From contig NZ_CP119677.1 in NCBI RefSeq assembly GCF_029318685.1, forward strand, positions 2,595,001 to 2,659,000: a stretch of DNA of 64,000 nt. The letters are read 5' to 3'. The first letter of the stretch is position 1, and each line of letters opens with the position of its first letter. The notes below the pieces were generated by a model. It saw nothing but the letters and a program-made list of their open reading frames with translations. It was not told the DNA's origin and did no database searches. The DNA is from Ruminiclostridium papyrosolvens DSM 2782 (lineage in GTDB: Bacteria; Bacillota; Clostridia; Acetivibrionales; DSM-1351). A program made the position numbers and the translations under genes. Below are positions 16,021-45,333 of this stretch, one piece after another.

Positions 16021-16704
16021 TTATGTAGCACTTTTAATTATCTTTTTTAAATCGCTTTCGGTTTCTCCATTTCTTTTGTATCGGAAATTACAACAATCAT
16101 CTCCTCTGCCCAGTGCTTTATCTAATTTCATTCCAGCCTTCATTTTCACAAACATACAATGATCAGTGGCACAAATGTACGGCATAATTTCCGATTGGTT
16201 ATTTTCGCGAAAGAAATCATTAATCCCACATCGTTTGTAATCTATTCCCCATTCAAAGTCTTTCCCGTTTCCATCAACTATGTCAAATACCCAATTGAAA
16301 ATATGGTCCCTTGTTTTTGAGTATCTTGCAAGTTCTCTCATATAAGCAATATGTTTTTTTGAAAATTGCTTTCGTTTCATAAGCTTCATTATAAAAGACG
16401 GATAATTGTCAATAAAGGTTTTGAAACCATAATAAATTATATCCCCTATTTGCTCCATACTTAAATCTTCCATTAAGAGATTCTCATAAATAATGTGAAC
16501 TATAAATGCAAAATCCATTGTTTTCTGGAATGCATTCATATCCATTCCTATATCAGGCATATCGTCATAGCTCTTCTCTAACTTATGCATACTTTTTTCA
16601 GCAATACGCTGGTTTGCACTAACGCCTATTTTTTCTTCAATAAAGGGTTTAAAAATCTTTAAGAATTTTTTCATTTGCTTGGTTATAATCTTTTTTCTAT
16701 TCAC
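16021..16704 (-). CDS. ATC hydrolase-like protein (L-2-amino-thiazoline-4-carboxylate hydrolase family)
   Basis: 227 residues, no signal peptide. The C-terminal half carries the family signature: ICATDHCMF near residues 176-184, then ALGRGDDCCNFRYKRNG near 195-215, where the Cys of the GDxC motif is the expected catalytic or ligand residue. The founding member opens the ring of L-2-amino-thiazoline-4-carboxylate on the way to cysteine. Here the gene is the last of the NRPS operon, 27 bases after the reductase-terminated synthetase. Since the first NRPS module is predicted to load Cys and the product is predicted to form a thiazolidine, a tailoring, proofreading or immunity role on a sulfur ring is attractive, but inferred. 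Family assignment rests on the C-terminal motif alone. Confidence 0.65.
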   Translation of the reverse strand: MNRKKIITKQMKKFLKIFKPFIEEKIGVSANQRIAEKSMHKLEKSYDDMPDIGMDMNAFQKTMDFAFIVHIIYENLLMEDLSMEQIGDIIYYGFKTFIDNYPSFIMKLMKRKQFSKKHIAYMRELARYSKTRDHIFNWVFDIVDGNGKDFEWGIDYKRCGINDFFRENNQSEIMPYICATDHCMFVKMKAGMKLDKALGRGDDCCNFRYKRNGETESDLKKIIKSAT

Positions 16705-16731
16705 GTCCTGCTACCTCCCTAAGATTTTTAT

Positions 16732-19700
16732 TTATAAATTGATAATATCTTTATCCAGATAGTTAACATCAATACAGTGTTCTAACATCTTTTCTATATG
16801 TATCTGTTCTAAATCAATCCATTGAAATCCCAGTTGATTAAGAATGAAATTAGTCTTCATATTATATGCAGTATACTGTTTGCTGATATTCAACTCCTTT
16901 CTTAGCAGCCCATAATTAACAAGTATACTATTTGCTTCGTTTCTGAGTTTTTTATTTTCATAGCAATTATACAAATAATCGAGAAAATCATTGGCAGAAT
17001 ATTTTTGCATTGTACATCCGCATTTAGAAAATAGTTCTGCAAGTTTATTTAGTTGAACATATTTATCATTAAAGATATGATACGTCTCATTTGTAAGATT
17101 ACTTTTGTTAAATAGTTTTATGATAGATGCGGAAACATAGTCAACAAAGGAAAAATCATACCTAATTGACATATCGGGAATAACTTTCATCTTTAAATAT
17201 GCCTTCAACACCGAGTAAAATGCATTTTCTTCAATATTCTCCTGAAATTTTCCGTTTTCAGAATCAAACACAATATTCCCAATTCTATATATATTTACTT
17301 TTAGCCCTTTTTCTCTGGCTTCTTGAATACGTTCTTCCGCTATTGCTTTTGTTTTCCCATAAAAATTCTCAATTGTATTACTGTCAGCATAGTCGTATTC
17401 ATTAAAAATAGCATCTCCTGAGTGGTTGTCGTAACTTGCAAAAACTCCAATTGTTGAAATATGATTTAAATCAATCCTTCTTTCACCCATACAGAATTCC
17501 AGTATGCGCTCAACACCTCTGACATTAATTTCATAAAAGTCGTTGTAATTTCCATAATGCTTTACATTCGCAGCAGAATTTATTACACAGTCAATATGCT
17601 CTGAAAGCTCTTTGTATAAAGTAACAGGCATTCCTAAAAAGGTCTGGGTCAAATCGCCTTGTACAATATGAAGCCTTTGCTTATTTTCTTCCATAATATC
17701 TTTTGATAAATAGTACATTGCTTTTTCTTTAAGTCTTGTTTCACATTCCTCCATTGACTGTCCGTGTACTAAGAGAAAAATTTCGCTTTCGGTCTCTTTT
17801 AATAACTGTCTCAAAATATATATTCCCAGATAACCGGTACATCCAATCAATAAAATATTTTTATATTTTTTTTCCGCCAGTACATCCAGTTGTTTATATT
17901 TTAATTTGGTTTTTTTATTATACTCAGCTCGTTTTGGAGAAGAATTAATATTGACATCTGCCGCTTTCTCCTCCATAGAGTTCAACATTTCTTTCATTAT
18001 ATTAATTTTATTTCTTAATAAATCTTTAGAATAAAATATATTTTTCGCTAATTGCTCAATGGTTCTGTAATTAAATATATCATTAATTTCCACAACAAAT
18101 TCTTTGGATAATTCAGATATAACTCTTATTATCTTAATGGAATTTCCACCTATTCTGAAGAAATCTTCATGAATGCCTACACGCTTGAGTTCTAATACTT
18201 CCTTCCAGACCTCTGCTATTTTCCTTTCTGTCTCATTACGTGGAGCCATATAATTCTTTAAGCTATTCCCGCTATTATCTATCTGCAATAATTTCTTTCT
18301 GTCAATTTTTCCATTACTGTTAAGGGGAATCCTATTGAGTTGTATAAAGTCAGACGGTATCATATATTCCGGAAGCTTTTCTTGCAGATATTGTTTCAAA
18401 TTTGGAATAACATTTTCGATGAATTTAGCCCTAACGGGATTGTTTGCATAATCTGATAATTTTCCGTAAGTTTGTACCGAATCACCTCCACAAATGCAGG
18501 TATGATATCCTTTCTGAGGGTTAAGTGCTTTTTGATAGCACACTATATCGAAATATTCATCTTTACCAACTCCCGACCAAACTGCTTCAACTGCATAACC
18601 GGGATAGTTTAATGTGTAAAATTCTTCCGGAGTACAACCTGCTTCCTCAAAATCATTCCTAAGTCGCTGCCTGAACTCCTCCATAGTTGTAACGGTGTTT
18701 TCCTCCAGCAGAGCCATTTCATTAAAAGACATCTCCAGACGTCTATTTCTTATATTACGTAATCTCAAAACTTCCGGTTTTCTCTCTTCCAAAATAATTT
18801 TTATTTCTTCTGCAGCAGTTATTTCTTTTCCCCAATCAAACATTAGTATTGCAGGATTTTTCACCTGTGTATGTATGTACAAAACAGCATCATATCTGAA
18901 TCTGTTTAATTCGTTCTCAATTGTTCCCCCTTTATGAAGAATTTCAATATGTGTAATATCCGGAATTTCCTTCATAAGAGCGTAGAAAAATTCAGGTGAA
19001 ACTAATAATTCTGTCTCGGTTAACATGCGATTTTCAATATGCTCTCTGCAAGCATCAATAGTAATGTTATTTGAAGCTTGAAATATTTCAACGGAAGTAT
19101 GAAATGCCCTCAATAGCGAAAAGTTTCTGATATCACCCAAGAATACGGCGCCTTCACCTTCAATACACCTGATAGCGTTTTTTAATACATTAACAAAATA
19201 CTCTGTATTAGAGAAATATTGAGCAACAGAATTGATAATCACTGTATCAAATTTATTCCCTGAAATTTCTTTAAAATCATGGGCACTTTTATTTAAAAGG
19301 GTTAATTTATGATGAACCTCTTTATTCTTTGCTACTTTTGCAACATATTCCAGAATTTTTGTAGATATATCCGTTCCCATATAGCTTTCACACTTATCAA
19401 TCAATCTGAATAACAGCATTCCCGTACCGCAACCGATTTCAAGTACTCTCTTAGGGTTCAATGCCTTAATTCGTCCAATAGCGGTATCTAACCATTCCCT
19501 CATTTCCAATTCTGATATCTGCTCACCGTTATAGCTACTCATCCATCCTGCAATATTAAAAGAATCCTCCATGCTCTTGGGTTCCAATAGGTTAATGCTA
19601 TTCCATACAACTTGCCAGTCCTCCAACTGTCGCTGCTCCTCTTTTTTGATTTCCTTCTCGAACTCTTTCATGTCTTCTTTCAACACCAGATATGAAGTAA

Positions 19701-22700
19701 GGCTTGAATCACCGAAGCTGTCAATTTTAGCTGTAACTACATTCTCTTTTATAGCGAAGAACTGATTTGTAACTGCTTCAATTTCTCCTAGTTCTATTCT
19801 GTGGCCTCTGATTTTTACCTGATGGTCTAATCTCCCTAAATATTCAATATTTCCATCAGAAAGCCATCTGCACAAATCACCTGTTCGATATAATCTTTCT
19901 CCTGCCACAAAAGGATTCTGCAAAAATTTAGTATTGGTTAGTTCGGGATTGTTGAGATAGCCCCTTGCTAAGCCCACTCCTGATAAGCATAATTCTCCCT
20001 CAACACCAATGGGAGTAATCTGCTTATTGAAGTCTAAAATAAATGCATTTAAATTTTGAATAGGTTTTCCGATTGGTATAAAGGTCTTATGGCAGTCATT
20101 TTCCGTAATAGAATATCTTGTAGCATATACTGTAGCTTCTGTGGGCCCATATAGATTTTCTAATTGTACATGAGGTATGATTTCAAAAAACCTTCTCACA
20201 GTATCTGTGCTAATTGCTTCTCCTGCGGAAAATACATATTTCAGGCAGCTTAATTTTTTCGCTTCATCTTTATTTATTGTTCCAAGAAATACATTCAGCA
20301 TAGAAGGAACAAAATTAATATGTGTCACGTCATTTTTAACTATTTCAGCTAAAATTTCGGAAGGATTTTTTTCATCACCTTTGTTCAATATAGCCAATCT
20401 CCCGCCACCAAAGAACCAACCGAATATTTCAGTCACCGATACATCAAAGGTGTAATTCGTTTTTAGTAAGTAGGTATCATTTTCAGAAACCGGGTATTGC
20501 TCCTGCATATAATACAGCAGATTTACAGCACTGTAGTTTTCTACTGTTACCCCTTTGGGATTACCGGTTGAGCCTGAGGTATAAATCATATAAGCCAGGT
20601 CATGAGGTCTGCTTTCTATTGCATTGACTCCTCCATTTTTGTTGTCATGGCATTTATTATCTATAGATAAATTCTCGCTATCTAAGCAATAAATAGCTAA
20701 ACTATGGTTTGATAACGTTTCACACAAAGTGTCATAATATTGTTTCGTCGTTAACAATATAGCTATATCACTGTCTTTCAAGATAAATTGGAGCCTGTCT
20801 TTAGGACATGCGGAATCAATGGGTACATATGCACATCCGGCCTTCAAAATTGATAAAATACCAAGAATCATTTCGGGGCAGCGCTCCATTAATATTCCTA
20901 TTTTCCCACCCTGCTTTGAACCACTACTCAATAACTTTTCTGCCATTACGGAAGAATAATCATGAACCTGTTTATATGTAGTCTGTTTGTCTTTATAGAC
21001 AAGTGCAGTATTATCCGGTGTCTTTTGAGCTTGTTCCACAAAGATATCTATAATGGTTTTATTTTCGGGAAAGTCTTCTTTTGTGTCATTAAATTCATTA
21101 ATCAGTTTGTCTTTTTCTTTTTCGTTCAATAGAATTATATCGGATACTTTCATATCCTCAGCTGCAAGAAGCTGTTCCACAACGGACAGCACATGTTTCG
21201 ATATACGTTGAATATACTCATGGTCGTACAGACAGGAATTATAACTAAACCGAAAAATTATGTCTTCTGCCGGTCCCACCATAATATTGAAATCATAATT
21301 TATTTGTTCGTATACATCGTTTGTGTCAAGGCTTATTTCGATTTCAGATGCAACTTTACTATGTTCTGATATATCCTGAATGGGATAGTTTTCAAAGGCA
21401 ATAATGTGGTTTAACAATTTGTCCTTTAACTCTGAATCTGTCTGTATTTCTACCAGTGGGTAATAGGAATACTTCAATGACTTTATAGCATTGTTTTGAA
21501 TATTTTCCAATAATTGCAAAACAGTCGTATTCCCTTCCGATTTTACCCTTACGGGAAGAGTATTCACAAAAAGGCCTACCATTTTCTCTATTCCTTCAAT
21601 TTCAGAAGGTCTTCCAGATACCACCGAGCCAAAAACAACATCATTTGTATTGTTATACTTTTGAAGAATAATTGCCCAGATTAAATGTATTACATTACTT
21701 AATGTTGCATGATTTTTTGAAGCAAAGTTTTTCAACTGCAACGTTAAGTCTTTGTTGATTCTGAATATGTATTCTTCTTTGCTGTATTCTCTTACTTTAC
21801 CCGTCGATTTTAAAGCCATTATACCTGTTAACTGCTCATAGCCTCCAAGATATTCTTTCCAGTAATCTCTTGCTTCATTATTATCTTGTTTGTCTATCCA
21901 ATCAACATAGTTCTTATATTCATTTATCGGAGTTAATTTCAATGGGGCACCTTTACTAAGTGTATTGTAAATGCTGAAAAACTCGTTGAATACAATTCCA
22001 AGACACCATCCATCCATTATAATGTGATGAAAACTCCAAATAATTATTTTTGTAGCTTTAGCAAAATCCAATATGGAGAGACGGATTAAATTATCATTCG
22101 ATAAGTCAAACCCACGCTCCCTATCTTTATTTTTACACTTTCTTATATATTCTGACTTTTCTTCTTCCTGCATATATGAAATATCTTTATAGTAAACTTC
22201 AGAGGTTCTGTTCTTTAAAACTAGTTGCTTTGGTTTCTTTAAATCTTTATAAACAATGGAACTTCTGAAAATGTCGTAGCGCTGCATTAAAATATCAAAG
22301 CTTTTCTCAAAATTCTTAACGTTTGCTTTTCCTGTGATTTTTACACTGAACTGTTCAAAGTAAACCGATGATTTCGTATCCTTCAGGTAATGGAATAACA
22401 TTCCCTCCTGCATGGGAGTGAGACTGTAAATACTTTTAATTTCTTCTGCCGGATAGCTCTTGCAGATTTCGTCAAAATCTTCTATTGAAACATAGGATGC
22501 CCCTACATCGTAGGGTGTATACTCTTTAATCTTTTTTTGGGCACAGTGATTGATAATAATCAGCAGATTTTCTTTAAACATTCTTGTAAAATCCAATATA
22601 CTATCTTCCTTATATTCGTTTTTATTGAAGCTTACAAGAAACTGCAATTTATCATCCATAACACTTCCGTTAATACTGATTTTTCCTAAACTTTCGCTGT

Positions 22701-25700
22701 CAGGACTTAAATAGTCACCTGCACTATATGGAGAAATACCTATAAATCCTTTATCCATGCCCCCATCAAACTGTCCCAGATAATTAAAAGTAATTTCGTT
22801 CTCGTACTCTAACTTCTCTCTTATCGTGTAGTCGGCATTATTCTTGAGTAACTGATATCCCACTCCCTTATCCGGTATGTGACGGATTGCCTCTTTCACT
22901 GTTTTAATTGCATGGGAAATATCCTCTGCTTTCTCCATATCCAATAGCAAAGGGTATTGGGAAGTAAACCAGCCCACTGTTCTGGTTACATCTATATTTT
23001 TAGCTATATTTTCTCTTCCGTGTCCCTCCATGCTAATCAAAATATGGTCAAGATTCTTCCATGCTTTAATTGAAACTCCTAATGCAGTAAGTAAAATATC
23101 ATTTGCCTCTGTGTTGTATGCTCTGTTGGTTTCCTTTAAGAAGCGATATGTGTCTTCTTTACTTAGAGAAAGCTTGCATTCCCTATTGTCTCTTATTTTT
23201 CTTGTTTGGATTTCATTGTCTACCGGTAACTTACATTGTCTTGAAACGATATTTTCCCAATATCTTCTCTGCCTTCCTGCTTCTTTTGAATTTCCGTACT
23301 CTTCTAAAGCCATTGCCCACTGGCGGTAAGAACAGGTTTTATCTGAAAATCCAAAATCCGTTCCATTTTGCAATTGTTCATATCCAGCTTTAAAATCCTC
23401 AAGAATAATTCTAAAGGAAACTGCATCCACCACTAAGTGATGTATGGCAATGATAAAATGATCCCCCTGATTGGTTTTAAACAACCCCAGTTTTACCAAA
23501 GGGCCCGTTTCAAGGTTTATTCCGGCTTGAATTTTTCCAGCTTCCTTTTCGATTACATCTTGACAACTCTCGTTATCATAAATCTCTTTTACATCAATTG
23601 AAAATAGGTTTTCACTATCAATGCTTCTGATGTACTGAAGGACTTGTCCGTCTTTTTCTGTAAATTTTGCCCGGAGTATATCGTGGTGCTTTACTATATT
23701 TTCAAAGACCTTTTTCACGATTTTTTCATCAAACCCATATGGGTTATATAAAAACATTGCCTGATTGAAATGATGACGGTTTGTAAAATTACATTCAAAA
23801 AACCATTTTTGTATAGGTGTCAACGGGGCTTCTCCCTCTGAGATTTCCTCGGCATAATTTGCATCGGAACTTTCATTTACAAAGGTCGCTGTACCTCTAA
23901 CTGTAGGATTGCTAAGTAAATCCTTGATTTCCAGTTTCATTTTATATTTATTCAGTCTGGAGGAAACCTGTATTGCCTTGATGGAATCACCGCCACAATC
24001 AAAAAAGCTGTCGTCAATTCCAACCCTTTTAACCCCCAGAACTTCCTGCCATATTTTACATAGTTTTTCTTCTATGTGATTTGTTGGAGGCTGATATTCC
24101 AGCTCACTGTCTGGACTTGTGGGAATAGGTAGCTCAAGCAAAGCTTTTCGGTCAACCTTCCCATTCTGTGTCAATGGCATGGTGTCTATTTTCACAATAT
24201 AAGAAGGTATCATATAGTCAGGCAGTTTTTCAGATAACACCTTTTTAAGCTTGGCAGGGTCTATTTCCTGAGTACCTGTATAATAAGCAATAAGATATTT
24301 ATTTTCATTACTATCTTCTTTATCTAAAACAACAACTTCTTTTATGGACTCAATCTTCTGGAATTGTATTTCTACTTCACTCAGTTCAATACGGTAACCT
24401 CTAATTTTAACCTGTTTATCCATCCTGCCCAGAAATTCGATATTTCCGTCAGGCAGCCATCTTGCAAGGTCTCCTGTCAGATATAGTTTTTCACCCGGCT
24501 GATAGGGGTTATCCACAAACTTTTCTTTCGTCAGTTCATCTTGATTCAAGTAGCCTTTTGCCAAGCTGTCTCCACTAATACAAAGCTGACCTATTGCTCT
24601 CACAGGAACTAAATTATTCCTTTTGTCTAAAATAAAGATTTTTATATTTGAAATAGGTTTTCCAATGGGTATGTTTTCGTAAGCTTTATCAACACAGAAG
24701 CTTGTGGCCACAACTGTGTTCTCGGTTGGTCCATAATTATTGACTAATTGATAATTGTTTTTTGTATAGCTCTTAATCTTATCTCCGCCAGTCAATAAAA
24801 ATCTCAAACTCTTATTTTCAAGCTTCATGAACTGTTCACATAATTGCGTCGGTAAAAAACTTATGGTAACTTTGTTTTCCTCAAAATAATCATTAAGTTT
24901 TTTAATATCTAAACGTATTTCATCACTGATAATGTGAAGTGACGCTCCTTTAATAAGGTAAGGGAATATTTCCCATACGGATGCATCAAAGCCAACCCCC
25001 GAATATTTTGTGGCTGCATCCTCTGCCTTAATCTGATAATAAGTATTATGCCAGAAACACAAATTAATCAGAGATTTATGGCTTACAATTACTCCTTTAG
25101 GATTTCCAGAAGAACCTGAGGTATAAATCACATACGCTGCATCGTCAGGAAGTAATCCGGCTTTGGGATTATGTGCTGCAACAGAATAAAGGGTCTCATC
25201 ATTCAGATTAAGCACAGTACCCTCAAACACTAAGTACTCCATATGCTTCTCTTGTGTCAGTAAGATACGGGGTTTGCTGTCCTCCAACATATATCGTATA
25301 CGTTGTGCAGGATATGAAGGGTCAATGGGCAAATAAGGGCATCCTGATTTCAGCACAGCTATTATAGCAATTATCATTTCCAAGGAATGTTCTGCTATGA
25401 TTCCTACTATCTCACCTGATTGCAGACCATTTTCTTTTAAATGTAAAGCCACCTGATTGGCCTTTTCATTTAACTCCTTGTATGTCAGAGTTCTATTTTG
25501 AAATACAACTGCAATAGCATTTGGGGATTTTTCAACTATTTCTTCAAATAGCTGCTTTACTGTTTTGTCTTTGGGATATTCTGATGTTGTTTTATTAAAT
25601 TCACAGATTAGCTGTAATCTTTCTTCTGCCGAGAGAATATCTATATCCTCAAGTCTAATATTAAAATCTTCAGTAACAGTCAGGAACACCTGCTTTAAAT

Positions 25701-32300: not shown

Positions 32301-35300
32301 AGTTTCATTTTGTACTTATTTAATCTGGACGCAATCTGAATTGCTTTTATTGAATCACCACCTAAATCAAAGAAACTATCATCTATTCCTATTTGTTTTG
32401 CGTTTAATATTTGCTTCCATATTTTACATAAATTTGATTCAACTTTATTTCTAGGCTCTGCATACTCAGTATTTTCGCCATTACCAGTCTCAAATTGCAG
32501 CTCCAACAGAGCATTCCGGTCTACCTTTCCATGCTGTGTTAAAGGCATCTCCTCTGTCTTAACAAAATAAGAGGGTATCATATAATCCGGAAGTTCTTTT
32601 GATAAATGCCTTTTTATATAAGCTGCATCCAATTCCTTGATTCCGGTATAAAAAGCAACCAGATATTTATTGTTGTTACTGTCTTGTTTATCTAAAACAA
32701 TAGTCTCTTTTATTTGCTCAATTTTTAGAAGTTGTTCTTCTATTTCACCTAATTCAATACGAAAGCCTCTTATTTTTACTTGATAGTCCTGCCTTCCCAT
32801 GAATTGAATTAATCCGTCCGGCGTCCATTTTCCAACGTCCCCGGTCAAATACATTTTCTCATTGGGCAGAAACGGATGCTCAATGAATTTTATTCTCGTC
32901 AGCTCCGGCTGATTCAAATAGCCTTTTGCCAAACCATCTCCACTGATACATATCTGGCCTCTTACACCTATTGGTACCAATTGATTCTTTTTATCCAGTA
33001 TGTATACTTTTGTATTCGGTATGGGTTTACCAATTGAAATAACCTCAGTGTTCGCTTCATTTGCCCTCCAATACGTTGCGCAAACAGTAGTCTCAGTAGG
33101 GCCATAAGCGTTAATATATTGAAGTTTGCTGCTCCATTTTTTTACAATGGCATCAGTTGTTTCAGACCCGGCTGTAATAAGTAACTTCAAAGCATGAATG
33201 TTGTCACTCTCCAAATGGACAGCATATGCAGGCGGTAATGTTGCGACAGTTATGTTATTGTCATTGATGAATTTTTCCATCTTCCTTAAATCATTAATAG
33301 TATCTTTCCTTGGAATGTATAAAGTGCCTCCTATTAATAGAGCCATCATGATTTCCCATACTGATGCGTCAAAAGATATACTTGCAAACTGTAAAATGTT
33401 GTCCTCTTTATTAATGTTCAAATCATGTTCAAAGTAGCTTTTCAGATTGGCTATTCCAATATGACCTACCATAACTCCTTTTGGCTTACCTGTGGAGCCG
33501 GAAGTATAAATAACATATGCTAAGTCTTGAGGAGTACTTCTTCCAACCAAACTGCAAGTTTCACCAAAAACAGTTTCCCTCAGCATTTCATCCATAATCA
33601 GAAATTCCCCATTAAATTCAGGTGTATACTCCAGTTTGGAGGTGCACAGCAAAATTGTAGTTTTGCTGTCTTCCAGCATATATTCAACACGGCTCTTTGG
33701 ATAATTGTCCGAAATGGGTAAATACGCTCCTCCTGCCTTTAAAATCCCAATAATCCCAATTATCATTGTTGCAGAAGGTTCACCGGTAACAGCAACTAAA
33801 GTTCCGGATGTTACCCCTTTTTTTACTAATATTTTAGCAACTTGATTAGCTTGTGTATTTATAAGACTATAGGTCAATTTCTTATCTTCATCAAAAACTG
33901 CTATTTTCTCAGGTACTTCCTTTGCTTGCTCCTCAAACAGTTCTTGTATTGTTTTTTCTTTATTATAATCTCTGTCAGTGCTGCAAAAATCCTCAAGTAA
34001 TTGTCTTTTCTCCTGACTGGCGAGGATATTAAGGTTTTCCAGCGTCTCGTGGGGATTATGAAGTATACTTGTAATTAACTCCTGCAAGTGAACCGTCAGC
34101 CTTTTTATGGTATCCCGGGCAAATAGTTTAACGCAATATTCTATTTGAAAATGAAGCCTATTGTTTTCTTCAGATGCAATAAGTGTTAAGTCAAACTTTG
34201 AAAACTTAAACCGCTTATTGTATTTCTTGAAAACAAGCCCACCAAGCTGTATTGAAGTATTTGCCACATCTTCAAAAACGAACATTGTATCAAAAAGGGG
34301 ATTTCTGCTCATGTCTCTCTTTGATGGCAATTTATCTGTTAAAAATTCAAATTGGCAGTCTTGGTTATCAAAAGCTTTCAAAGTAGTCTGCTTCATTTCT
34401 TCCAAGTATTGTAAAAATGTTTTTTTACCTTCAGGATAGCTTCTGATTGCAATGGTGTTTACAAACATTCCTATTATATCCTGTAAATCTGCGTGTGTCC
34501 TTCCCGAAACAGGAGTACCTACTACAAGGTCTTCTTGTGAGGTATATTTATACATTAGTATGTTATATACGCAAAATAGCAGCATGTATAATGTAGTTCC
34601 GGTTTTTGCGGTGAGTCCCTTTAGCATCTCCGTAGTTTTCTGACTAAGCACAAAATCTATTCTGTCACCTTCAAAGGATTGAATAAGAGGTCTTTTATAG
34701 TCCATAGGCAGCTCAAGTATAGGCACAGGTTCAGAAAAGACTTTTTTCCAATAGTCTTGCTGCTTCTTAAAAAGACCTTTTTTAGTACTTTCATTTTGCC
34801 ATATTGCATAATCCCTGTATTGCAGTCTTAATGGCTGCAAAGGCCTTCCCTCATAGAGTTCCTTTAAATCTGACAACATTATATCAACTGATATTCCATC
34901 TGCTGCAATATGATGAACATCAATAACAATTATGTGCTGATTTTCGTTCTTCTGTATAACAGTTACTCTTATTAAGGGAGCAGTACTTAAATCAAAAGGC
35001 CGGATAGCAGCATCAATAAATTTCTCCTCATTTTCTCCTGCCTGCAATTCAACAAAATTAACCCTTAGCACTAAATCTTCATTTATTTTCTGTACAACCC
35101 TATCATCCTGTATTTCAAAATATGTCCTCAAAGACTCATGTCTTCGTACTATCGCACAAAACGCATCCTGAAGTCTTCTTTTATCCAAATAACCTTCTAT
35201 CTCCATAATTAACGGTATATTGTACACCGTACCTGTTCCATCCAATTGACATACGGTAAATATTCTTTTTTGGCTTGAGGACACAATATAGTATTCCTGT

Positions 35301-35461: not shown

Positions 35462-35495
35462 TTGGTAACCTCTTTCTATAGCAAAAAATTCAAAG

Positions 35496-38400
35496 TCATA
35501 TTCCCAAATCGATTAACTTTTTCATTAACAATTCTTTTTTTTTCTTTCGCTCTAAGGCTGCATGTATCAATTCAGATATTTCTTGAATAGTTTGCTTTTG
35601 GAAAAAATCTTCAATTTTTAACTTTATATTTATTTCTTTGAATATTCTATTTACCAGCAATGTTGTTTTTAATGAATTTCCCCCATGTTCAAAGTAATTG
35701 TTGTTTATTCCAAATTGGCTCACTCCCAACACTTTCTTGTAAATACTCACTAATTTTTCTTCTATTTGATTTCTTGGTGCTACATAATCCAATTCTGTAT
35801 TTGCTTCAAGCATTGGCAAAGCGAACTTGTCCAGTTTCCCATTTGAGGTAATTGGTATTCTATCTAAAATCACAATTCTAGAAGGTACTTTATATGTCGG
35901 GAGCTGCTGCAATAAATATCCTCTTATTTCTGATAACGTAATGCCCTGTTTCCCTGTGACATAAGCTACAAGAAATTTATTATCAGCTTTATCTTCATTA
36001 ACAACAACAATCGCTTCATTTATACCCTCATACCTGGATAGTAAGGTTTCAATTTCTTGTAATTCAATCCGAAATCCACGTATCTTTACTTGATCATCTG
36101 CTCTTCCCAGATATTCAATTACTCCATTCTCCAACCATCTGCCAATATCGCCTGAGCGGTATATAAAGTCTCCAATCACAAATGGATTTTCAATAAATCT
36201 CTCTTTTGTCAGTTCTTCTTTGTTTAAATAGCCCATGGCAACTCCGGCACCGCCAATATACAACTCACCGGATACTCCAATTGGCTGAACTTTTAAGTTA
36301 TTATCCAAGATATAAATCTGTGTATTAGATATCGGGAACCCAATAGGGATGGACAACATATCAGAATGAATAGCATCAATTGGATACGCTGTTGCAAAAA
36401 CAGTAGTTTCAGTAGGCCCATAGACATTGATTAATTTTCCTTTGCCCAATTGTGCAAGGGCTTTTCTCACATGTTCTACAGAAGCGGCTTCCCCTCCGAA
36501 AACTATCTTTCTTACATCTTTAAAAATTTGCAAATCAATGTCAACAAGCATGTTAAATAACAGTGTGGTTAGAAATAATACAGATATTTCTTCTTTTCTT
36601 ATGGTAGTTGAAAGGTCACTTAATTCCAGTACATTTTCAATCAAAACTAATTTTGCGCCATTTAATAATGCTCCAAAAATATTGAAGGTAGAGCCGTCAA
36701 AGGAATAGTTCGAGGTTTGAAGTACACTGTCCTTTTCGCAAAGCTCAATATAATTTGTATTTTTGACAACTCTTATTATATTAGAATGATTTGTCCTGAT
36801 TCCTTTTGCTTCTCCTGTTGTTCCTGAAGTATACATAATGTATGCACAGTTTTTTGCCGAATAATTATTTTTTATGCTTCTTATACTATTCTCTGGTTTA
36901 TTTAAATCTTTAATATAAAGTAACTCTACCCCCAAGGGTTCAGTATTAATAACCTCTTTTGCCGTTACCAGAATATTGACATCACAGTCTTCCAGCATGT
37001 AGTGTACACGGCTTAACGGCAGCTTTGAATCTATTGGCAGATATGCTGCCCCCGATTTTAGTATGCCTAAGATACTTACTATCATTTCAACACAACTGTT
37101 TAATAAAATAGCTACAATATCTCCTGCTTTTACTCCCTGATTAATTAAATGCCTTGACAATTCCTCTGCCCTTTCATTTAACTCACCATAAGTCAAGCTT
37201 TGCTCTTTATAAACAACTGCTGTTTTTTGTGGCTGCTTATTAGCATATTCTTCAAATATTTCAGGAATTGTTTTCTCTTTTCCATAGTCAGTCTCATTGT
37301 CATTGAATTCAAACAGCAATGTATTCTTTTCTGTTTCCGTTAAAATATCAATATCCTGCAGCCTTTCATGGATATTATTGATAATAGCCTTCATTATATT
37401 CCGAATATGGCCTTCCAGCCTGCTTAGCAGCTTTTTATCATATAAGCTTGGATTATATTTAAGTTTTATTTTCAAGGAATCCCCTGTCTGAACAATTACA
37501 TTCAGGTCATAACTTGTTTGCTCTACAGCTTCTATACTATTTTTCTGGTATATGATTCCATTGTTTTGGGGATTTTCATAGTAATCCACAGGATAGTTTT
37601 CAAAAGCAATAATATGATTAAATAAACCTCTCTGTAATTTTAATGCTCCCTGTATTTCATCCAATGAATAATACGCATACTTGGTTGACTCAATTGACAT
37701 TTTTTGAAGCTGTCTTACATAGTTCAAAAAAGTCGTGTTTCCCCCTGCCTTTATTCTCATTGGAATAGTATTTATAAATAATCCCACCATCTCTTCTATT
37801 CCATCAATATCAGCCTGTCTGCCTGATACCACGGTACCAAACACTACATCATCAGTATTGTTATAGCTTCTCAGCAATATTGACCATATTCCCTGAAAAA
37901 CACTATTTAACGTTAATCCATATTGGTTTGATAAATCTTTTAATTGCTTTGTTTGACTTTCGTCCACAATGATGACAAAATCTTCACAAGCCTGCACTTC
38001 TGAATTACTTTTTTCAGACCGAGAAGGTATTCCAACATAGTTTTCATAATCCTGCAAATAATCCATCCAATATCGTTCTGCTTGCTCTTTATCTTGCTGT
38101 TCAAGCCAACCAATATAATCTCCAAAGTCCATGTTTTCCTCAGAGCTGAACATGCTATTTTGGGCAAGGTGATTATAAATATTCTTCCACTCTTTGAGAA
38201 TTATCTCAAAGCTCCAACCATCCAGTATGATATGATGGAAGCTGAAAACCGCTTTATATACTGACTCTGAAACTCTTATTATCCCAAGACGAAGCAAGGT
38301 GTCCTTTGTAAAATCAAAACCTCGCTCCTTATCCTTCTCCATAAAATCCTCTATGAACTTGTTTTGCTCTTCTAAAGCTTTGTCTTTATTATCGTAATAA

Positions 38401-41400
38401 TAAATTTCAGCATTTCTTTCTTTCAAAATAACCTGTACGCCGGTGTCAAGTTTGTCATAAAAAATGCCGGTTCTCAATACGTCATATTTTTGAACTAACA
38501 ACCCAAAACTTTTTTCTAATAAGGATTTCTGAATTTTACCGAGAATATTTATACTGATTTGTTCAAAATAATCCCTTGTTTTTTCATTTTTCAGACAATG
38601 AATCAGCATTCCTGCTTGTAAGGGCGTTAAACAATAAATATTTTTAATGTTATCCATGCTATATTCCTTGCAGATAATATCGAAATCCCTTAAACTGAGT
38701 TTTACTCTTCCAACATCGTAAGGTGTTATCTCTTCATTTCTCTGTCGAACACAATGCTTTATAACTTCTTTTAGCTTGTTAATTAAAATACAGGCGAATT
38801 TATTGATGTTATCCTGCAGAAATTCATTTTTGTCATACTCAATCTGGAATTTGAGACATCCATCTATAACAAGACTGTTTACGCTTAGCTTACTTATATT
38901 TTTATTTTTAATACTCATTGAATCAGCGTGCATAAACTGTTGAATTTTGAAGACATCCTGTCCTCTGTCCTGACCAAATTGACCAAGATAATTAAAAGAT
39001 ATCTCAGCGTCATAGTCTAAATTGCTGCTTTTTTCACTTTGCATATATCTTAATAATTGATAGCCAAAGCCCTTAAAAGGAATATGTCTCAAGGATTCTT
39101 TTACCGCTTTTATAACATAGGACAAGTCCTCTATATTTGATAAGTCAAGATGGATTGGATATTGGGAAGTAAACCACCCCACTGTACGGGTGATATCTAT
39201 ATTCTTTACTGCCTCCTCCCGTCCATGTCCCTCCATATTAATTACAATGGAATTTATTCCTTGCCACTCTTTTATGGCCAAACCAAGGGCTACTAACAAA
39301 AGGTCGTTTATTTCCGTATGGAAAGCCCTGTTTGAATTTTTAACCAATTGTTGTGTATCAGCTTCAGATAACTCTGTACTGATATTTGATATATTTCCTA
39401 CTTTCCTGTCCTTTACAGCAAAATCCGTGGTAAGAGGTTTTTGGTTTTTTACAATTTCCTCCCAATATTCTCTTTGAGCCAATACTTCTTTTGTTTTGGC
39501 GTATTCCTTTAATTTTTTTGCCCATGCTTTATATGAATTTGTTTTGTTGTCAAAAGATATTTTCTGCTTGCTTAATCCCTGCAAATAACCCCTTGAAATA
39601 TCTTCAAATAATATTCTCCAAGAGACACCATCAATAACCAGATGATGTATAGCAATAAAAAGGTAGTCCCCGACACTTGCTTTAAACAAAATCAAGCGAA
39701 CAAGAGGCCCTTGCCCTAAATCCATCCCACTCTGAATATGCTTACTCTCTATATCCATTGCTTTGTTGTCATCTTCTGCACCAACTATATTACAGACCTT
39801 CAGAGAATATAATTCTCCTTCATTCAAATCCCGGATATATTGTTTTACTTGGTTCCCCTCAACTGTATAGCACATTCTCAGTGCATCGTGATGTTCCAGT
39901 AGCTTTTTAAATAAGTCATGTAATATATTTTCTTCAAGACGCTCCTTGCAAAACAACGTAACGCTCTGATTAAAATGCTGCGGTTCTGTAAATTTCTGTT
40001 CAACGAACCACTTTTGAATAGGCGTTATATTGACTTCTCCTGTAATAATATCCTGAGATAAATTTTCTTTCTCATTTACTTTTATACAACCCCTTAGTTT
40101 TCGGATTTTGGTTTTTTGCAACAAATCTTTTACTTCTAGTTTAAGTCCATATTTTTGTATTCTTGAAATAATCTGTATTGCTTTGATTGAGTCTCCTCCT
40201 ATGCAGAAGAAATCATCTTCTATTCCGACTTTATCTACACCCAGAACTTCTTGCCATACATTTACTAATATTCTTTCCTGTTCATCCCTTGGCTCTGCAT
40301 AATCAGCATTATCATAAAATTCCGATTCATATTGTGACAATGCAAGGCGGTCTACCTTCCCATTTGCATTTATTAAAATTTCCGGCAGACAAATAAAGTC
40401 AAGGGGTATCATATAAGCCGGTAAGCTATTCCCGAGGATATCCCTTATTTCTTCTTTTGGTATATCCATACGGGCAGTATAGAATGCAAGCAGATATTTA
40501 TTACCTTCCTTGTCTTCTTTGTCTATAACAACTGCTTCTTTTATTCCGTCAATTTGAGAAATATGCGTTTCAATCTCGCCTAATTCAATACGGTATCCCC
40601 TAATTTTAACCTGTTTATCAATTCTGCCTAAGAATAATATTGCTCCATCCAAAGTCCATTTTCCCAAATCTCCTGTTCGATACATCTTTTGTCCCGCAAT
40701 TACCGGATTTGGAACGAACTTAGCTTTTGTAAGACCTTCACGGTTCAAGTACCCTTTTGCCAGACTTTCTCCTGATATGCATATTTCGCCCTGTACGCCA
40801 ATTGGTACTACATTATTATCTTTGTCCAGAATATAAACCTGTGTATTTGTTATAGGCTTTCCAATAGGTATATTCGCAGATAATTCATTTACTTCATATG
40901 AAGTTGTAACCACTGTATTTTCTGTGGGGCCATAATTATTTATTAATTTATAGTTTCCGTTTACTCTGAATTCCTTTAATTTATCTCCTCCGGTCAAAAG
41001 ATATCGAAGGGACTTATTTTTAAACTTCATAAATTGCTCACATAGTTGAGTAGGCAAAAAGCTGATGGTTATATTGTTTTCTTCAAAGTATTCATTGAGA
41101 CTCTCAATATCCAGCTTTAGCTCATCTTTTAATATGTGTAGAGTTGCACCCTTAATAAAATATGGGAAAATTTCCCATACAGATGCATCAAAACCAAAGC
41201 CCGCATATTTTGTGCTATTATCCTTATCAGTTACATTAAAGTTCTTATTATGCCAATAACACAGGTTCACCAAAGACTTATGCTCAACCATTACTCCTTT
41301 AGGCTTTCCTGTGGAACCCGAGGTATAAATAACATAAGCTAAATCATTCTGTTTGCAATTTGCAGGCAGATTATCGTCAGATAAACTATGCCAGTCATTG

Positions 41401-44400
41401 CTTTCCAGAGAATAAAGTTCACCCTTGTATTCCAGTCCTTTTACTAATCTTTTGTGGGTCAATAATATCTGCGCTTTGCTATCATCCAGAATAAACTTAA
41501 TTCTCTGATGAGGATATTGAGGGTCAATTGGCAGATATGCTGCTCCTGATTTAATTATCCCAAGTATTCCAATTATCATATCAAAAGATGGTTCTGCCAT
41601 AATAGCAATAATGGGATTTACTTTATTAAACTTACTACTCAAGTACTTTGCCAATTGGTTGGATTTTTGATTCAGCTCCGAGTATGTCATTGTTACACCG
41701 CAATATACTACGGCTGCTTTATCCGGCGTTCTTTCTGCCTGCATTTCAAACAATTCTTTAATTGTTTGATTTTTTTCAAAACACTCAGCAGTATTATTAA
41801 ATTCATATAATATTTTGTTCATTTCTTCACTTGTCAAAATATTAATGCTTTTAAGTGAAATATCAGAATTTACGGCTACTGAATGCAAAAGATTTTTCAA
41901 ATGCTCAGCCATTCTTTCAATTGTTTCTCTTTTGAATAATTTGCTACAGTACACTAATTTCACTTTCAGACACCCGTCTGTTTCCTGTACACTGATTGTA
42001 ATGTCGAATTTGGCAATATCGGGAATATTATCTGAATTAATAAACTTTGTATTGTCAACTTCCAAAGCTGTAATCCCTGTATTCTGAAAATCAAACATTG
42101 TGTCAAAGACAGGATTTCTGCCCATATCACGTCTTATGTTCAAATCCTTTATTATATCATCAAATTGGTAGCTCTGATTTTCGTATGCATTTAAAAATAC
42201 CTCTTTTACTTCCTTTATGTAAGCTGTAAAAGATTTATCACCCATAGGATAGCTTCTGATAGGTACTGTGTTTACAAACATACCAACGATCTTCTGTAAA
42301 TCAGGTTGGTTTCTTCCTGCAAAGACCGTTCCAACAATAATGTCTTCGTCATTAGTGTATTTGTACAATAAAGCTTTATAGGCAGATAATAAAACCACAT
42401 ATAAGGTTGAATCCGTCTTTCTCGCCACTTGGTTTAATTTACTTGTTATAGCTTCACTAATGTAAGTAACTACATGATTTCCTTCATAGCTTTGGTACAA
42501 AGGCCTTTCATAATCATAAGGCAGATTTAAAACAGGAAGTTCACTCTTTAAATTTTCCATCCAATATTTTTTTTGATTTACTATATTATCCTGCATCCAT
42601 ACCCTATTCTGCCACGCAGCATAGTCTTTATATTGCACTGTAATTGGTTCAAGCTCTTCATTAGCATATAATTTCATGATTTCTTTAAATAGAATATCCA
42701 TGGAGGTACCATCCGTAATAATGTGATGGCTGTCAAGCAATAGAAAATATCTGCTCCCCGAATAAATTAATCTTCCTCGAATCAGTGGTGCTGTGTTTAA
42801 ATCAAAGGGCTTTACAAATTCTTCTGCCTTCAAGGCTTCATCAAAGGGTTCTTGTATTTCAAAATACTCCAGTGAAAACTTTATGTTCTGATGGACTCTC
42901 TGAAACAGTTCTCCATCAGTCATGTGAAATGAAGTTCTTAATGCCTCATGGCGATTCACCATTTGTTGGAAGGCATATTCCAATTTTTCTTTATTAATCT
43001 TTCCTTCTGTAATCATCAAAAAGGGTACATTATAATTCGTTTCTGACTGTTGGCGAGTCCAAATAGAATACAATCTTTTTTGTGCAGAAGAAGCTATGTA
43101 ATAATCACTTTCCTCTATAGGAGTTATTGATAATTGCCGGCAATTATCCGCATTATCAATGAGTTGAGCCATTTCTCTTAATGTTGGAGCTTCAAAAATG
43201 TGACGAATGGATATATCACATTGAAATTCTCTTTGAATGAAGTGAACTAATACTGTTGCTTTTAAAGAATGTCCCCCTAATTCAAAAAAATTGCTGGCAG
43301 CTCCTATCCTTTGCTTGTCCAGCAGTTCCATCCAAATATCGGCTAATTTTATTTCCGTTTCACTTGACAAGGCTAAATCTTCTTGGGTATTATTTATACC
43401 ACCCTCGATTTTCACCAGAGCTTTTCTGTCAATTTTACCGTTTAATGTAATGGGCATTGTCTCCAATTGTATAAAACAGGAAGGTATCATATATTCAGGC
43501 AGCTTTTTCAATAGGTATTCTTTTATCTCACCACCTGAAATTTGCTGTTTTGCCGTATAATAAAGATTAAGATATTTTAGTCCTTGATTATCAGTTTTAT
43601 CTATAACAACTGCTTCTTTTATTAATTGATTTTGCAAGATTTGATTTTCAATTTCTCCAAGTTCAATTCGATAACCTCTTATCTTAACCTGATAATCTAT
43701 TCTTCCTGAAAATTCAATATTGCCATCCGGCATCATTCGTCCCTTATCACCGGTTTTATATAGCTTATCTCCATTGACACCGAAAACAATATCTTCTATA
43801 AAGGAGTCGCTTGTCTTAGAGTCATCATTTATATATCCTCTGGCAACGCCAATTCCTCCAATATATAGTTCGCCCGCTTGTCCGACAGGAACCGGCTTTC
43901 TATCATTATCCAGAATATAGAACTGATTATTATCCAAGGGTTTCCCATATGGTATGCTATGACTATAGTTTTGAGAGGGATTAATGACATAGTAAATAGA
44001 CCATACTGTTCCCTCGGTAGCACCGCCTAAGCTAACGATTTTGGTATTCGGAAAGTAAGATGTCATTCTGGCAGGAAGCGAAACAGGTATCCAGTCTCCA
44101 CTCATAAAAACAAGTCTGAGATGGGGATATTCACAGCTTTCTCCGCTTAATTCAAGCTCATTTACCAAATGATTCATTGTTGATGGAACAGAATCCCAGA
44201 AAGTTATTTTTTCTTCTTTCAGAAGTTTTTTCAACTCCTTAGGGTCCTGTACCTGCTCTTTCTCCGCAATTACAACCTTACCTCCGGCTGCAAGAATTCC
44301 AAATATATCGTACACGGACAAGTCGAAGCACATGGATGTGATAAATAGTAAGGTATCCTTTTCTGTTACATAAAATTTATTATTAATGCTTGTAATGAGA

Positions 44401-45002
44401 TTTACGGCAGAATGATGCTCAATCATTACCCCTTTTGGCAACCCCGTTGAACCCGAAGTATAGATAATATATGCTAAACTTTTGGAGTCTCCCTCCAAAG
44501 CTAAATTATTGGTGTTATATTTGCTTAATTCCTTTTGGTCAATTCTTATAACATTTTGAAAATCTATTTCATTATCCTGTCCAACCACCACTACTGATAA
44601 GCCGGAATTCTCTATTATATGTTTTATTCGATATTCCGGATAACTAGGGTCAATTGGTACATAAGCTCCTCCAGATTTTAAAGTGGCCAACATTCCAACT
44701 ATCATTTCAAAAGACCTGTCACAGATAATACCTACAGTATCTCCCGTTTTAACATTATGCGCTTCCAAACTTCTTGCCAAGGCATTTGATTGCCGGTTCA
44801 GCTCATTATAAGTCATAGTTTTTCTTCTATATACCAAAGCAATATTATCGGGTGTTTTTATTACCTGTTCCTCAAATAATTGATACATCATCTTCCAACT
44901 GTGGTAATCAACATGTGTGTTATTATAATTTGATAATAATTTTCTATCCTCCTTTGAAAGCCCCTGAAAGAATGTTGTATCACCATTTACCTTAAACCCC
45001 AT
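35496..45002 (-). CDS. NRPS subunit 1 (initiating): A1-T-C-A2-T-E-C-A3-T
   Basis: 3168 residues; modules 1-3, first gene of the operon. It begins directly with an A domain after a 40-residue linker, with no starter condensation domain, so the first residue keeps a free amine. Order: A1 (TSGSTGLPKG, 184); T (FFELGGHSLKA, 574); L-L condensation (HHIITDGTS, 760); A2 (1231); T (FFCIGGDSIKA, 1604); epimerase (IHHLVIDGVSW, 1787; EGHGRE, 1926); D-L condensation (FHHIILDGW, 2259); A3 (TSGTTGEAKG, 2727); T (YFEHGGNSLKT, 3106). Codes read by hand against GrsA: A1 DLYDFSLVWK, close to Cys codes and with the Cys-type SLGGATEG block; A2 DAWFLGNVVK = Leu; A3 DGFFVGVVFK, closest to Ile with Val possible. 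The C-terminus is Lys-rich (ERKKKKELLMKKL), suited to docking with the acidic start of subunit 2. Confidence 0.9.
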   Translation of the reverse strand: MGFKVNGDTTFFQGLSKEDRKLLSNYNNTHVDYHSWKMMYQLFEEQVIKTPDNIALVYRRKTMTYNELNRQSNALARSLEAHNVKTGDTVGIICDRSFEMIVGMLATLKSGGAYVPIDPSYPEYRIKHIIENSGLSVVVVGQDNEIDFQNVIRIDQKELSKYNTNNLALEGDSKSLAYIIYTSGSTGLPKGVMIEHHSAVNLITSINNKFYVTEKDTLLFITSMCFDLSVYDIFGILAAGGKVVIAEKEQVQDPKELKKLLKEEKITFWDSVPSTMNHLVNELELSGESCEYPHLRLVFMSGDWIPVSLPARMTSYFPNTKIVSLGGATEGTVWSIYYVINPSQNYSHSIPYGKPLDNNQFYILDNDRKPVPVGQAGELYIGGIGVARGYINDDSKTSDSFIEDIVFGVNGDKLYKTGDKGRMMPDGNIEFSGRIDYQVKIRGYRIELGEIENQILQNQLIKEAVVIDKTDNQGLKYLNLYYTAKQQISGGEIKEYLLKKLPEYMIPSCFIQLETMPITLNGKIDRKALVKIEGGINNTQEDLALSSETEIKLADIWMELLDKQRIGAASNFFELGGHSLKATVLVHFIQREFQCDISIRHIFEAPTLREMAQLIDNADNCRQLSITPIEESDYYIASSAQKRLYSIWTRQQSETNYNVPFLMITEGKINKEKLEYAFQQMVNRHEALRTSFHMTDGELFQRVHQNIKFSLEYFEIQEPFDEALKAEEFVKPFDLNTAPLIRGRLIYSGSRYFLLLDSHHIITDGTSMDILFKEIMKLYANEELEPITVQYKDYAAWQNRVWMQDNIVNQKKYWMENLKSELPVLNLPYDYERPLYQSYEGNHVVTYISEAITSKLNQVARKTDSTLYVVLLSAYKALLYKYTNDEDIIVGTVFAGRNQPDLQKIVGMFVNTVPIRSYPMGDKSFTAYIKEVKEVFLNAYENQSYQFDDIIKDLNIRRDMGRNPVFDTMFDFQNTGITALEVDNTKFINSDNIPDIAKFDITISVQETDGCLKVKLVYCSKLFKRETIERMAEHLKNLLHSVAVNSDISLKSINILTSEEMNKILYEFNNTAECFEKNQTIKELFEMQAERTPDKAAVVYCGVTMTYSELNQKSNQLAKYLSSKFNKVNPIIAIMAEPSFDMIIGILGIIKSGAAYLPIDPQYPHQRIKFILDDSKAQILLTHKRLVKGLEYKGELYSLESNDWHSLSDDNLPANCKQNDLAYVIYTSGSTGKPKGVMVEHKSLVNLCYWHNKNFNVTDKDNSTKYAGFGFDASVWEIFPYFIKGATLHILKDELKLDIESLNEYFEENNITISFLPTQLCEQFMKFKNKSLRYLLTGGDKLKEFRVNGNYKLINNYGPTENTVVTTSYEVNELSANIPIGKPITNTQVYILDKDNNVVPIGVQGEICISGESLAKGYLNREGLTKAKFVPNPVIAGQKMYRTGDLGKWTLDGAILFLGRIDKQVKIRGYRIELGEIETHISQIDGIKEAVVIDKEDKEGNKYLLAFYTARMDIPKEEIRDILGNSLPAYMIPLDFICLPEILINANGKVDRLALSQYESEFYDNADYAEPRDEQERILVNVWQEVLGVDKVGIEDDFFCIGGDSIKAIQIISRIQKYGLKLEVKDLLQKTKIRKLRGCIKVNEKENLSQDIITGEVNITPIQKWFVEQKFTEPQHFNQSVTLFCKERLEENILHDLFKKLLEHHDALRMCYTVEGNQVKQYIRDLNEGELYSLKVCNIVGAEDDNKAMDIESKHIQSGMDLGQGPLVRLILFKASVGDYLFIAIHHLVIDGVSWRILFEDISRGYLQGLSKQKISFDNKTNSYKAWAKKLKEYAKTKEVLAQREYWEEIVKNQKPLTTDFAVKDRKVGNISNISTELSEADTQQLVKNSNRAFHTEINDLLLVALGLAIKEWQGINSIVINMEGHGREEAVKNIDITRTVGWFTSQYPIHLDLSNIEDLSYVIKAVKESLRHIPFKGFGYQLLRYMQSEKSSNLDYDAEISFNYLGQFGQDRGQDVFKIQQFMHADSMSIKNKNISKLSVNSLVIDGCLKFQIEYDKNEFLQDNINKFACILINKLKEVIKHCVRQRNEEITPYDVGRVKLSLRDFDIICKEYSMDNIKNIYCLTPLQAGMLIHCLKNEKTRDYFEQISINILGKIQKSLLEKSFGLLVQKYDVLRTGIFYDKLDTGVQVILKERNAEIYYYDNKDKALEEQNKFIEDFMEKDKERGFDFTKDTLLRLGIIRVSESVYKAVFSFHHIILDGWSFEIILKEWKNIYNHLAQNSMFSSEENMDFGDYIGWLEQQDKEQAERYWMDYLQDYENYVGIPSRSEKSNSEVQACEDFVIIVDESQTKQLKDLSNQYGLTLNSVFQGIWSILLRSYNNTDDVVFGTVVSGRQADIDGIEEMVGLFINTIPMRIKAGGNTTFLNYVRQLQKMSIESTKYAYYSLDEIQGALKLQRGLFNHIIAFENYPVDYYENPQNNGIIYQKNSIEAVEQTSYDLNVIVQTGDSLKIKLKYNPSLYDKKLLSRLEGHIRNIMKAIINNIHERLQDIDILTETEKNTLLFEFNDNETDYGKEKTIPEIFEEYANKQPQKTAVVYKEQSLTYGELNERAEELSRHLINQGVKAGDIVAILLNSCVEMIVSILGILKSGAAYLPIDSKLPLSRVHYMLEDCDVNILVTAKEVINTEPLGVELLYIKDLNKPENSIRSIKNNYSAKNCAYIMYTSGTTGEAKGIRTNHSNIIRVVKNTNYIELCEKDSVLQTSNYSFDGSTFNIFGALLNGAKLVLIENVLELSDLSTTIRKEEISVLFLTTLLFNMLVDIDLQIFKDVRKIVFGGEAASVEHVRKALAQLGKGKLINVYGPTETTVFATAYPIDAIHSDMLSIPIGFPISNTQIYILDNNLKVQPIGVSGELYIGGAGVAMGYLNKEELTKERFIENPFVIGDFIYRSGDIGRWLENGVIEYLGRADDQVKIRGFRIELQEIETLLSRYEGINEAIVVVNEDKADNKFLVAYVTGKQGITLSEIRGYLLQQLPTYKVPSRIVILDRIPITSNGKLDKFALPMLEANTELDYVAPRNQIEEKLVSIYKKVLGVSQFGINNNYFEHGGNSLKTTLLVNRIFKEINIKLKIEDFFQKQTIQEISELIHAALERKKKKELLMKKLIDLGI

Positions 45003-45028
45003 TTTTTCTTATCATTCCTTTCCATTCA

Positions 45029-45079: not shown

Positions 45080-45300
45080 AGAACCCCCTATATCAGATGA
45101 TTTGTCACGTTTGTAACCATCCTTTTTTCAAAGGTACCCGTTTACAAGCACCAGCTTTATTTTTTTATTTTATTCATTCATAAATAAATATCTTATTAAA
45201 TTATTATTCCGAATTGTATTAGATATTTTATTTATTGACATTATTAGCAAATACATGCGTTGTTATTGCGCCAGCAAAAGCCAATAACTATTATTTTTAC
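45080..45300 (-). other. Long 5' leader of the NRPS operon
   Basis: About 220 bases between the predicted transcript start and the leader ORF. It holds a hairpin at the very 5' end (arms 45262-45268 and 45282-45288, 7 bp), an A/T-rich middle and a small CCTTT-GAAA-AAAGG tetraloop hairpin near 45120-45135 flanked by TTGTAA and TTACAA. It matches no riboswitch class that I recognise. Confidence 0.35.
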
Positions 45301-45304
45301 CATA

Positions 45305-45333
45305 ATTGTATACTTTTGGGGTGTATTTTTCAA
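45305..45333 (-). promoter_or_regulatory. Promoter of the NRPS operon
   Basis: Minus-strand TTGAAA (45328-45333), a 17-bp spacer and TACAAT (45305-45310) make a good housekeeping-type promoter. It lies between the terminator of the sugar operon and the NRPS genes, so the NRPS operon is an independent unit with a leader of about 300 bases. Confidence 0.65.

Follow-up and report, generated by a model that had tools for sequence, protein, structure and literature searches.

A collinear seven-module peptide synthetase of Ruminiclostridium papyrosolvens with a probable lugdunin-type product

Three adjoining genes of Ruminiclostridium papyrosolvens DSM 2782 encode a seven-module non-ribosomal peptide synthetase (NRPS) whose product, predicted from the genes alone, is probably of the lugdunin kind. 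They lie between 16732 and 45002, on the minus strand, of a 64,000-nucleotide stretch (the window; positions 2,595,001 to 2,659,000 of NZ_CP119677.1) of a genome that forms a single contig of 5,027,861 bases. The whole line comprises seven adenylation (A), seven thiolation (T), six complete condensation (C) and three epimerisation (E) domains, one methyltransferase and one reductase (R). We propose that it would build Cys-D-Leu-Ile/Val-D-Phe-Phe-D-Leu-N-Me-Ala (or N-Me-Gly), one module per residue, that R would use NAD(P)H to release the finished chain with an aldehyde at its C terminus, and that the amine and thiol of the free N-terminal cysteine would capture this aldehyde with no enzyme involved. 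The result would be a thiazolidine macrocycle of the lugdunin type with an N-methyl group adjacent to the ring. Taken whole, from Cys-first heptapeptide through aldehyde release to ring closure, the proposal seems to us slightly on the probable side. A first-pass annotation of the locus had named the same kind of product; the anatomy on which it drew is right, and the thiazolidine is the most likely reading, one that depends on a single A1 code, cysteine-like but non-canonical.

N1 (35496 to 45002, 3168 aa) carries modules 1-3 as A1-T1-C2-A2-T2-E2-C3-A3-T3, N2 (26375 to 35461, 3028 aa) modules 4 and 5 and the C domain of module 6 as C4-A4-T4-E4-C5-A5-T5-C6, and N3 (16732 to 26349, 3205 aa) modules 6 and 7 as half-C-A6-T6-E6-C7-A7(MT)-T7-R. 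The gaps between the genes are 34 and 25 bases, and their G+C content is 34.4-34.9%, against 37.6 and 38.0% in the flanking parts of the window. Chance matching to NRPS domains is not an issue because PF00668 scores within the window reach 410.8 bits; all seven T domains have the serine of GG[HDN]S. The first-pass annotation had listed seven A-T modules in three collinear genes, epimerases after modules 2, 4 and 6, an N-methyltransferase in module 7 and a terminal thioester reductase, and each was recovered by domain search and motifs. It had also seen no starter C domain: in-frame stops lie immediately upstream of the N1 start, which leaves no room for a concealed starter C domain or formylation domain. 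It overlooked that N2 ends with a complete C6 and that N3 opens with a half-C head. Its span, 16021 to 45333, does hold the genes, but 45333 is no gene end, being the first base of a promoter-like match that is no evidence of function (N1 starts at 45002), and the stretch from 16021 to 16704 is a fourth operon gene that it missed, 27 bases after N3, encoding a 227-aa ATC_hydrolase homologue (PF14196).

The condensation and epimerisation domains form three distinct classes. C2 (41808 to 43115, HHIITDG), C4 (33995 to 35302) and C6 (26414 to 27709, HHIICDG) belong to the LCL class and are pairwise 39-42% identical, C3 (37308 to 38651, HHIILDG), C5 (29492 to 30817) and C7 (21094 to 22446) belong to the DCL class (39-46%), and E2 (38709 to 40037, HHLVIDG), E4 (30872 to 32200) and E6 (22501 to 23832) share 45-51%, against 19-29% between classes. 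HHxxxDG is present in E2 and in all six complete C domains; E4 and E6 have HHLVVDA. Three separate classes are expected because each E would precede a D-accepting C, and they fit a predicted L-D-L-D-L-D-L peptide, which backs, as prediction and not as chemistry, the alternation of L and D residues claimed at first pass. Lugdunin likewise alternates D and L residues (PMC11045845).

C6 and A6 are on different proteins. N3 starts with about 260 residues (25564 to 26349) whose matches to C domains are confined to the C-terminal portion (residues 169-436 of C2; TycC from residue 268) and which lack HHxxxDG, while N2 closes with a complete LCL domain. This split would suit a line whose modules are used out of strict order, or with one skipped or iterated, and precedents exist in the lugdunin and koranimine lines, each of which loads more residues than it has A domains. 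Such non-collinear use is highly improbable here: gene order fits the D/L order, and the same junction recurs elsewhere. Eight distinct NRPS proteins in 20 stretches examined begin with a half-C head. Wherever such a head has an NRPS gene directly upstream, the product of that gene closes with a complete C domain, 12-20 residues before its stop (four of four testable cases), and two further complete-C/half-C junctions were seen by eye in locus L140; the remaining four heads have no upstream NRPS gene in the stretch (three) or follow a frame without NRPS domains (one). The half-C heads are mutually homologous, and the junction cases include L050, L054, L056 and L140. Since it recurs, the junction looks like a repeated way of splitting the line between subunits and not a frameshift, and it might be a docking device. 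A structure model of the head (mean predicted local distance difference test score, pLDDT, 57.5; 3 sequences) was too poor for a fold search. The starter module of ThdA, of the thermoactinoamide line, is also described with a truncated C domain (PMC7253712).

Substrate codes were first read by eye at the GrsA positions and later extracted by an alignment script; as a control, the same extraction on the 2.6-Mb genome G447 gave, in order, five codes equal to the first five of the six published thermoactinoamide codes (PMC7253712). A2 (40335 to 41762) and A6 (24133 to 25560) carry DAWFLGNVVK, predicted to select Leu and the same as the Leu code of ThdA_A1, and A3 (35811 to 37268) carries DGFFVGVVFK, predicted for Ile/Val. 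A4 (32501 to 33949) and A5 (28004 to 29452) share DAWTIAAVCK, a Phe code. A7 (19603 to 21054), with DVTNFALVYK, appears to select a small residue of the Ala/Gly type. Its nearest solved A domain is that of LgrA module 2 (403.6 bits; LgrA module 1, 253.8 bits), which presumably loads Gly, and in the tree described below it groups with two similar codes, adjoining a DVWHFSL clade that we assume to be for Ser. The methyltransferase (18430 to 19632, S-adenosylmethionine motif LEIGCGTG) is inserted in A7, and residue 7 is read, with low certainty, as N-Me-Ala or N-Me-Gly. Of the first-pass chain, Cys-D-Leu-Ile/Val-D-Phe-L-Phe-D-Leu-N-Me-Xaa-al, residues 2-6 hold by their codes and C/E classes and Xaa is narrowed to Ala or Gly, but residue 1 is secure only as X; the chain is better written X-D-Leu-Ile/Val-D-Phe-L-Phe-D-Leu-N-Me-Ala/Gly-al, with X most likely Cys.

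A1 (43410 to 44888), a Cys-like starter with no C domain upstream, is likely to load cysteine. Its code, DLYDFSLVWK, was the same by eye, by script and in the first-pass annotation. The best solved relative of its active-site stretch is BmdB (123.4 bits; next enzyme 101.3 bits), the bacillamide enzyme whose A domain we take to be specific for Cys. In a tree of 65 A domains, 13 DLYD and 10 DLYN codes, A1 included, form one cysteine-type clade with 100/100 support; when the remaining A domains serve as outgroup, the DLYN codes branch from within the DLYD ones with 91/88 support, which does not earn the tool's star. Most of the DLYN group in this tree sits behind heterocyclisation (Cy) domains. 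A1 falls outside the DFWN clade, DFWN being presumably a Thr code, and a Thr first residue of the koranimine type is thus not indicated. Starters with DLYNLSLIW (L099) and DLYNFSLVW (L117) exist, and cysteine-type starters are therefore not unique to this locus.

The alternative at this position is that A1 loads 2,3-diaminopropionate, alanine, serine or another small residue, in which case the amine alone would capture the aldehyde to give a cyclic imine like those of koranimine and nostocyclopeptide or, with diaminopropionate, a nitrogen five-ring; we regard this as unlikely, though several observations favour it and so weigh against the thiazolidine. Koranimine, likewise a heptapeptide, is released reductively and forms a cyclic imine (PMC9640594). 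A1 has Asp278 and Phe299 at positions that hold Asn and Leu/Met, respectively, in the main cluster of Cys codes; Ala can be accommodated by DLYNLSGVWK, so the DLY..S..W group is not cysteine-only (PMC12283262). Phe299 alone is less odd, occurring with Asn278 in L063 (behind Cy) and in the L117 starter. Acids at 278 hold side-chain amines in Lys and Orn codes. The upstream partner of 25 DLYN A domains is Cy in 17 and C in 4, with 2 starters and 2 unclear; that of 20 DLYD domains, the window's included, is C in 14 and Cy in none, with 2 starters (the window and L096), 3 unclear and 1 cut. Among the legible cases, then, 17 of 21 DLYN domains but 0 of 14 DLYD domains stand behind Cy (Fisher's exact test, Cy versus C, p about 1.6e-6, inflated by relatedness). 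The tally takes distinct A domains from loci mostly chosen for likeness to A1, not at random, counts identical cores once and leaves out matches of 400 aa or less; its DLYN side includes two codes that are not standard Cys codes, and at least 3 of the 17 Cy calls come from a loose pattern match (L038, L114 and L115, the last two showing proper DxxxxDxxS motifs). DLYD domains would serve either for cysteine that is left uncyclised or for another substrate.

Weak C-like hits beside relatives of A1 had suggested a Cy partner as proof of cysteine; alignment gave [QH]HA[IV]LDG and not DxxxxD, and the idea was dropped. A C domain of the type [QH]HA..DG precedes the DLYD domain in 10 of the 14 legible cases, and in several lines a Thr-type (DFWN) module comes before it; one of the unclear cases, L053, reads QHAILDG in the alignment. 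This subtype, [QH]HA[IVL]LDG(WS) before DLYDFSL[VI]W modules, was met in Clostridia and Bacilli (L049, L050, L053-L057, L061, L112 and L140), often with Gln for the first catalytic His, and the module before it is Thr-type in L049, L053-L057 and L061 and DVWSIAMVH in L140. A separate arrangement, in L059, L100 and L130, is a Cys-type A domain (DLYNMSLIW or DLYDFSLIW) with T and a reductase immediately after it; such lines would end in a cysteine-type aldehyde.

Set against a non-cysteine substrate are the position of A1 inside the Cys-type clade at 100/100 with BmdB nearest, the canonical DLYN domain of L118, which follows an HHALYDG C domain resembling the [QH]HA..DG type by score and motif, and the separate codes that Ser and Gly (for Gly, PMC12283262) have among these loci. 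Diaminopropionate, proposed from Asp278, is disfavoured by a search for the SbnB-type route in the genomes of the order and in Cohnella (G249, G612 and other DLYD genomes outside the order being left out). In the genome of R. papyrosolvens the best match to the SbnB family scores 20.4 bits (cut-off 326.9) and is not convincing, and SbnB matches at 1e-20 occur in 12 of 58 genomes of the order, none of the nine with a DLYD module among them. Cohnella, which has DLYD modules, does possess an SbnB-family gene with an SbnA-like neighbour (by eye), but on a different contig from its NRPS locus, L061. In the NRPS surroundings of Cohnella, G612 and G006, inspected by eye, only a cystathionine-gamma-synthase-like frame about 10 kb from the G612 NRPS bears on the A1 substrate, and it is not decisive.

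R (16735 to 17877) ends N3. Its motifs GCTGYLG, ISTIG and YGKTK align with their counterparts in 6vtj, 8v1x and MxaA (NRPS, polyketide synthase and MxaA reductases; Rossmann plus Thr/Tyr/Lys), and it scores 167.6 bits with Pfam NAD_binding_4 (cut-off 20.1). It is predicted to give an aldehyde, though two- or four-electron release is not readable from its sequence. MxaA, a close solved relative (106.7 bits), is presumably a four-electron reductase, and published work proposes a linear lugdunin variant on the basis of mass spectra and reports koranimine in an open aldehyde form as well; on these grounds the released aldehyde could stay linear, be reduced to the alcohol or act as a protease inhibitor, with no macrocycle in the cell. 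We hold this improbable: the amine and thiol of an N-terminal cysteine readily condense with an aldehyde, as a matter of general chemistry, and the ring size is the same as lugdunin's. For the thiazolidine macrocycle the calculated ring masses are 805.4560 (Ile3 and N-Me-Ala7), 791.4404 (either Val3 or N-Me-Gly7) or 777.4247 (both), and the corresponding [M+H]+ values are 806.4633, 792.4477 and 778.4320; the same formula gives 782.451 for lugdunin.

Likeness to lugdunin was judged from published descriptions of the LugABCD line. The Lug starter module is not known to have a C domain. Common to the Staphylococcus lugdunensis line and this one are Cys first and the thiazolidine (both predicted here), seven residues, alternating D/L configuration and a terminal reductase; the lugdunin line has five A domains, whereas this locus has seven and no iterative module, and it differs further in the N-methylated residue 7, the Phe-Phe core, differently shaped transporters and an anaerobic host. 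The chemical precedent, Cys with a C-terminal aldehyde giving a thiazolidine, is described for lugdunin (PMC8210680, PMC7927808). Koranimine (KorABCD, Bacillus/Peribacillus) is also a hydrophobic heptapeptide with Phe and Leu, released reductively and closed into a macrocycle from its terminal aldehyde, but begins with Thr, hence the imine, and its line assembles the 7 residues with 5 or 6 A domains (PMC9640594). The aureusimine synthetase AusA, whose reductase is related to R and is among the further R matches listed, has two modules and a pyrazinone product (PMC8210680), while ThdAB shares an identical Leu code, near-identical Ile/Val codes and a truncated C at a subunit start, and differs in having that truncated C on its starter module, a Leu starter and six modules (PMC7253712). 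A further likeness to AusA is that NF047350 is a high-scoring NRPS model on N1, N2 and N3, though below its cut-off. Nostocyclopeptide is a heptapeptide imine, not a thiazolidine. It has in common with our proposal a peptide aldehyde, a reductase domain and macrocyclisation, and its source is cyanobacterial (PMC7551626).

Further points against a lugdunin-type product lie outside A1. The NCBIfam thioester-reductase model scores 191.6 bits on R, below its 213.35 cut-off. When 3,6-ditryptophan-lugdunin was N-methylated at positions 3, 4 or 6, its membrane sheet became disordered (PMC11045845), and N-methylation may likewise weaken tube formation by the peptide proposed here; the label fibupeptide would imply a ring, a membrane pore and antibacterial activity, which in this case are predicted only. 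Among the window genes scanned there is no gene set shaped like lugIEFGH, the ABC exporters being fused where the lug cluster has, besides LugI, its ATPases and permeases in separate genes, LugE/G and LugF/H (PMC7927808), and no phosphopantetheinyl transferase (PPTase) or type II thioesterase family; a 248-aa PPTase-family frame and two shorter ones lie elsewhere in the genome.

Downstream of the operon, an OmpR-type response regulator and a histidine kinase (13676 to 15723) are candidate regulators, and two fused, MsbA-like ABC exporter genes (9978 to 11705 and 8107 to 9960) a candidate pair for export and immunity, linked to the synthetase by position; these genes are on the minus strand. 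A MerR regulator (11797 to 12615) also lies downstream, and a 296-aa protein adjoining the histidine kinase gene (12699 to 13589) looks exported by eye and has no Pfam or NCBIfam match at 0.001. The ATC_hydrolase homologue was considered as a marker of cysteine chemistry and set aside: the four homologues found in the order share 23-28% identity with it, and no NRPS domain lies in the stretches opened around them, so the name carries little weight, and a search of the open-access literature on it brought up a single paper, on an unrelated subject. That the N-methyl group of a collinear fibupeptide caps tube growth while this homologue acts on the N,S five-ring, by opening, setting or sparing it (for example in self-protection), is a speculation we would give very little chance. 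Elsewhere in the window are a stand-alone amino-acid adenylation enzyme (43 to 1551; AA-adenyl-dom 318.1 bits), beside GNAT and CDP-alcohol phosphatidyltransferase genes, and a GH9-dockerin gene, which fits a cellulosome former.

The cluster looks rare in a non-exhaustive search: no matching cluster was found among the loci opened, which cover part of the matches. Within the order, 9 of 58 genomes have relatives of R at E ≤ 1e-60, the best one outside the window's genome being 47% identical, and the opened stretches around five of the eight others (L051, L052, L058, L059 and L060; at most 20 kb, shorter than the cluster) do not contain this module set. Relatives of A1 are found in 12 of the 58 at 1e-140 (best other 61%), in 6 of 391 genomes of the class at 1e-145 and in 62 of 398 of Cohnella's class at 1e-120, with at most three candidates scored per genome in the last two tallies; the window's own genome is counted in the order and class figures and not in that for Cohnella's class. 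A plasmid search limited at 1e-100 returned 210 records, all below 60% identity. In one genome (G012; L024, L058) an NRPS reductase match has one in-frame TAA, possibly a decayed line.

Lugdunin, an antibiotic of a nose bacterium, is described as the fibupeptide that founded the class (PMC7927808), and no second natural one was found among the papers listed in searches of the open-access literature (titles and abstract starts, with most subscription papers outside it). The host studied here is a cellulose-degrading anaerobe, and its product is predicted from genes alone. If the proposal is true, this seven-module collinear relative would offer a plainer engineering template than the lugdunin line, whose A domains are fewer than its residues. 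It would also show the lugdunin plan in an anaerobe and allow one to ask what effect a natural N-methyl group has on the tube model.

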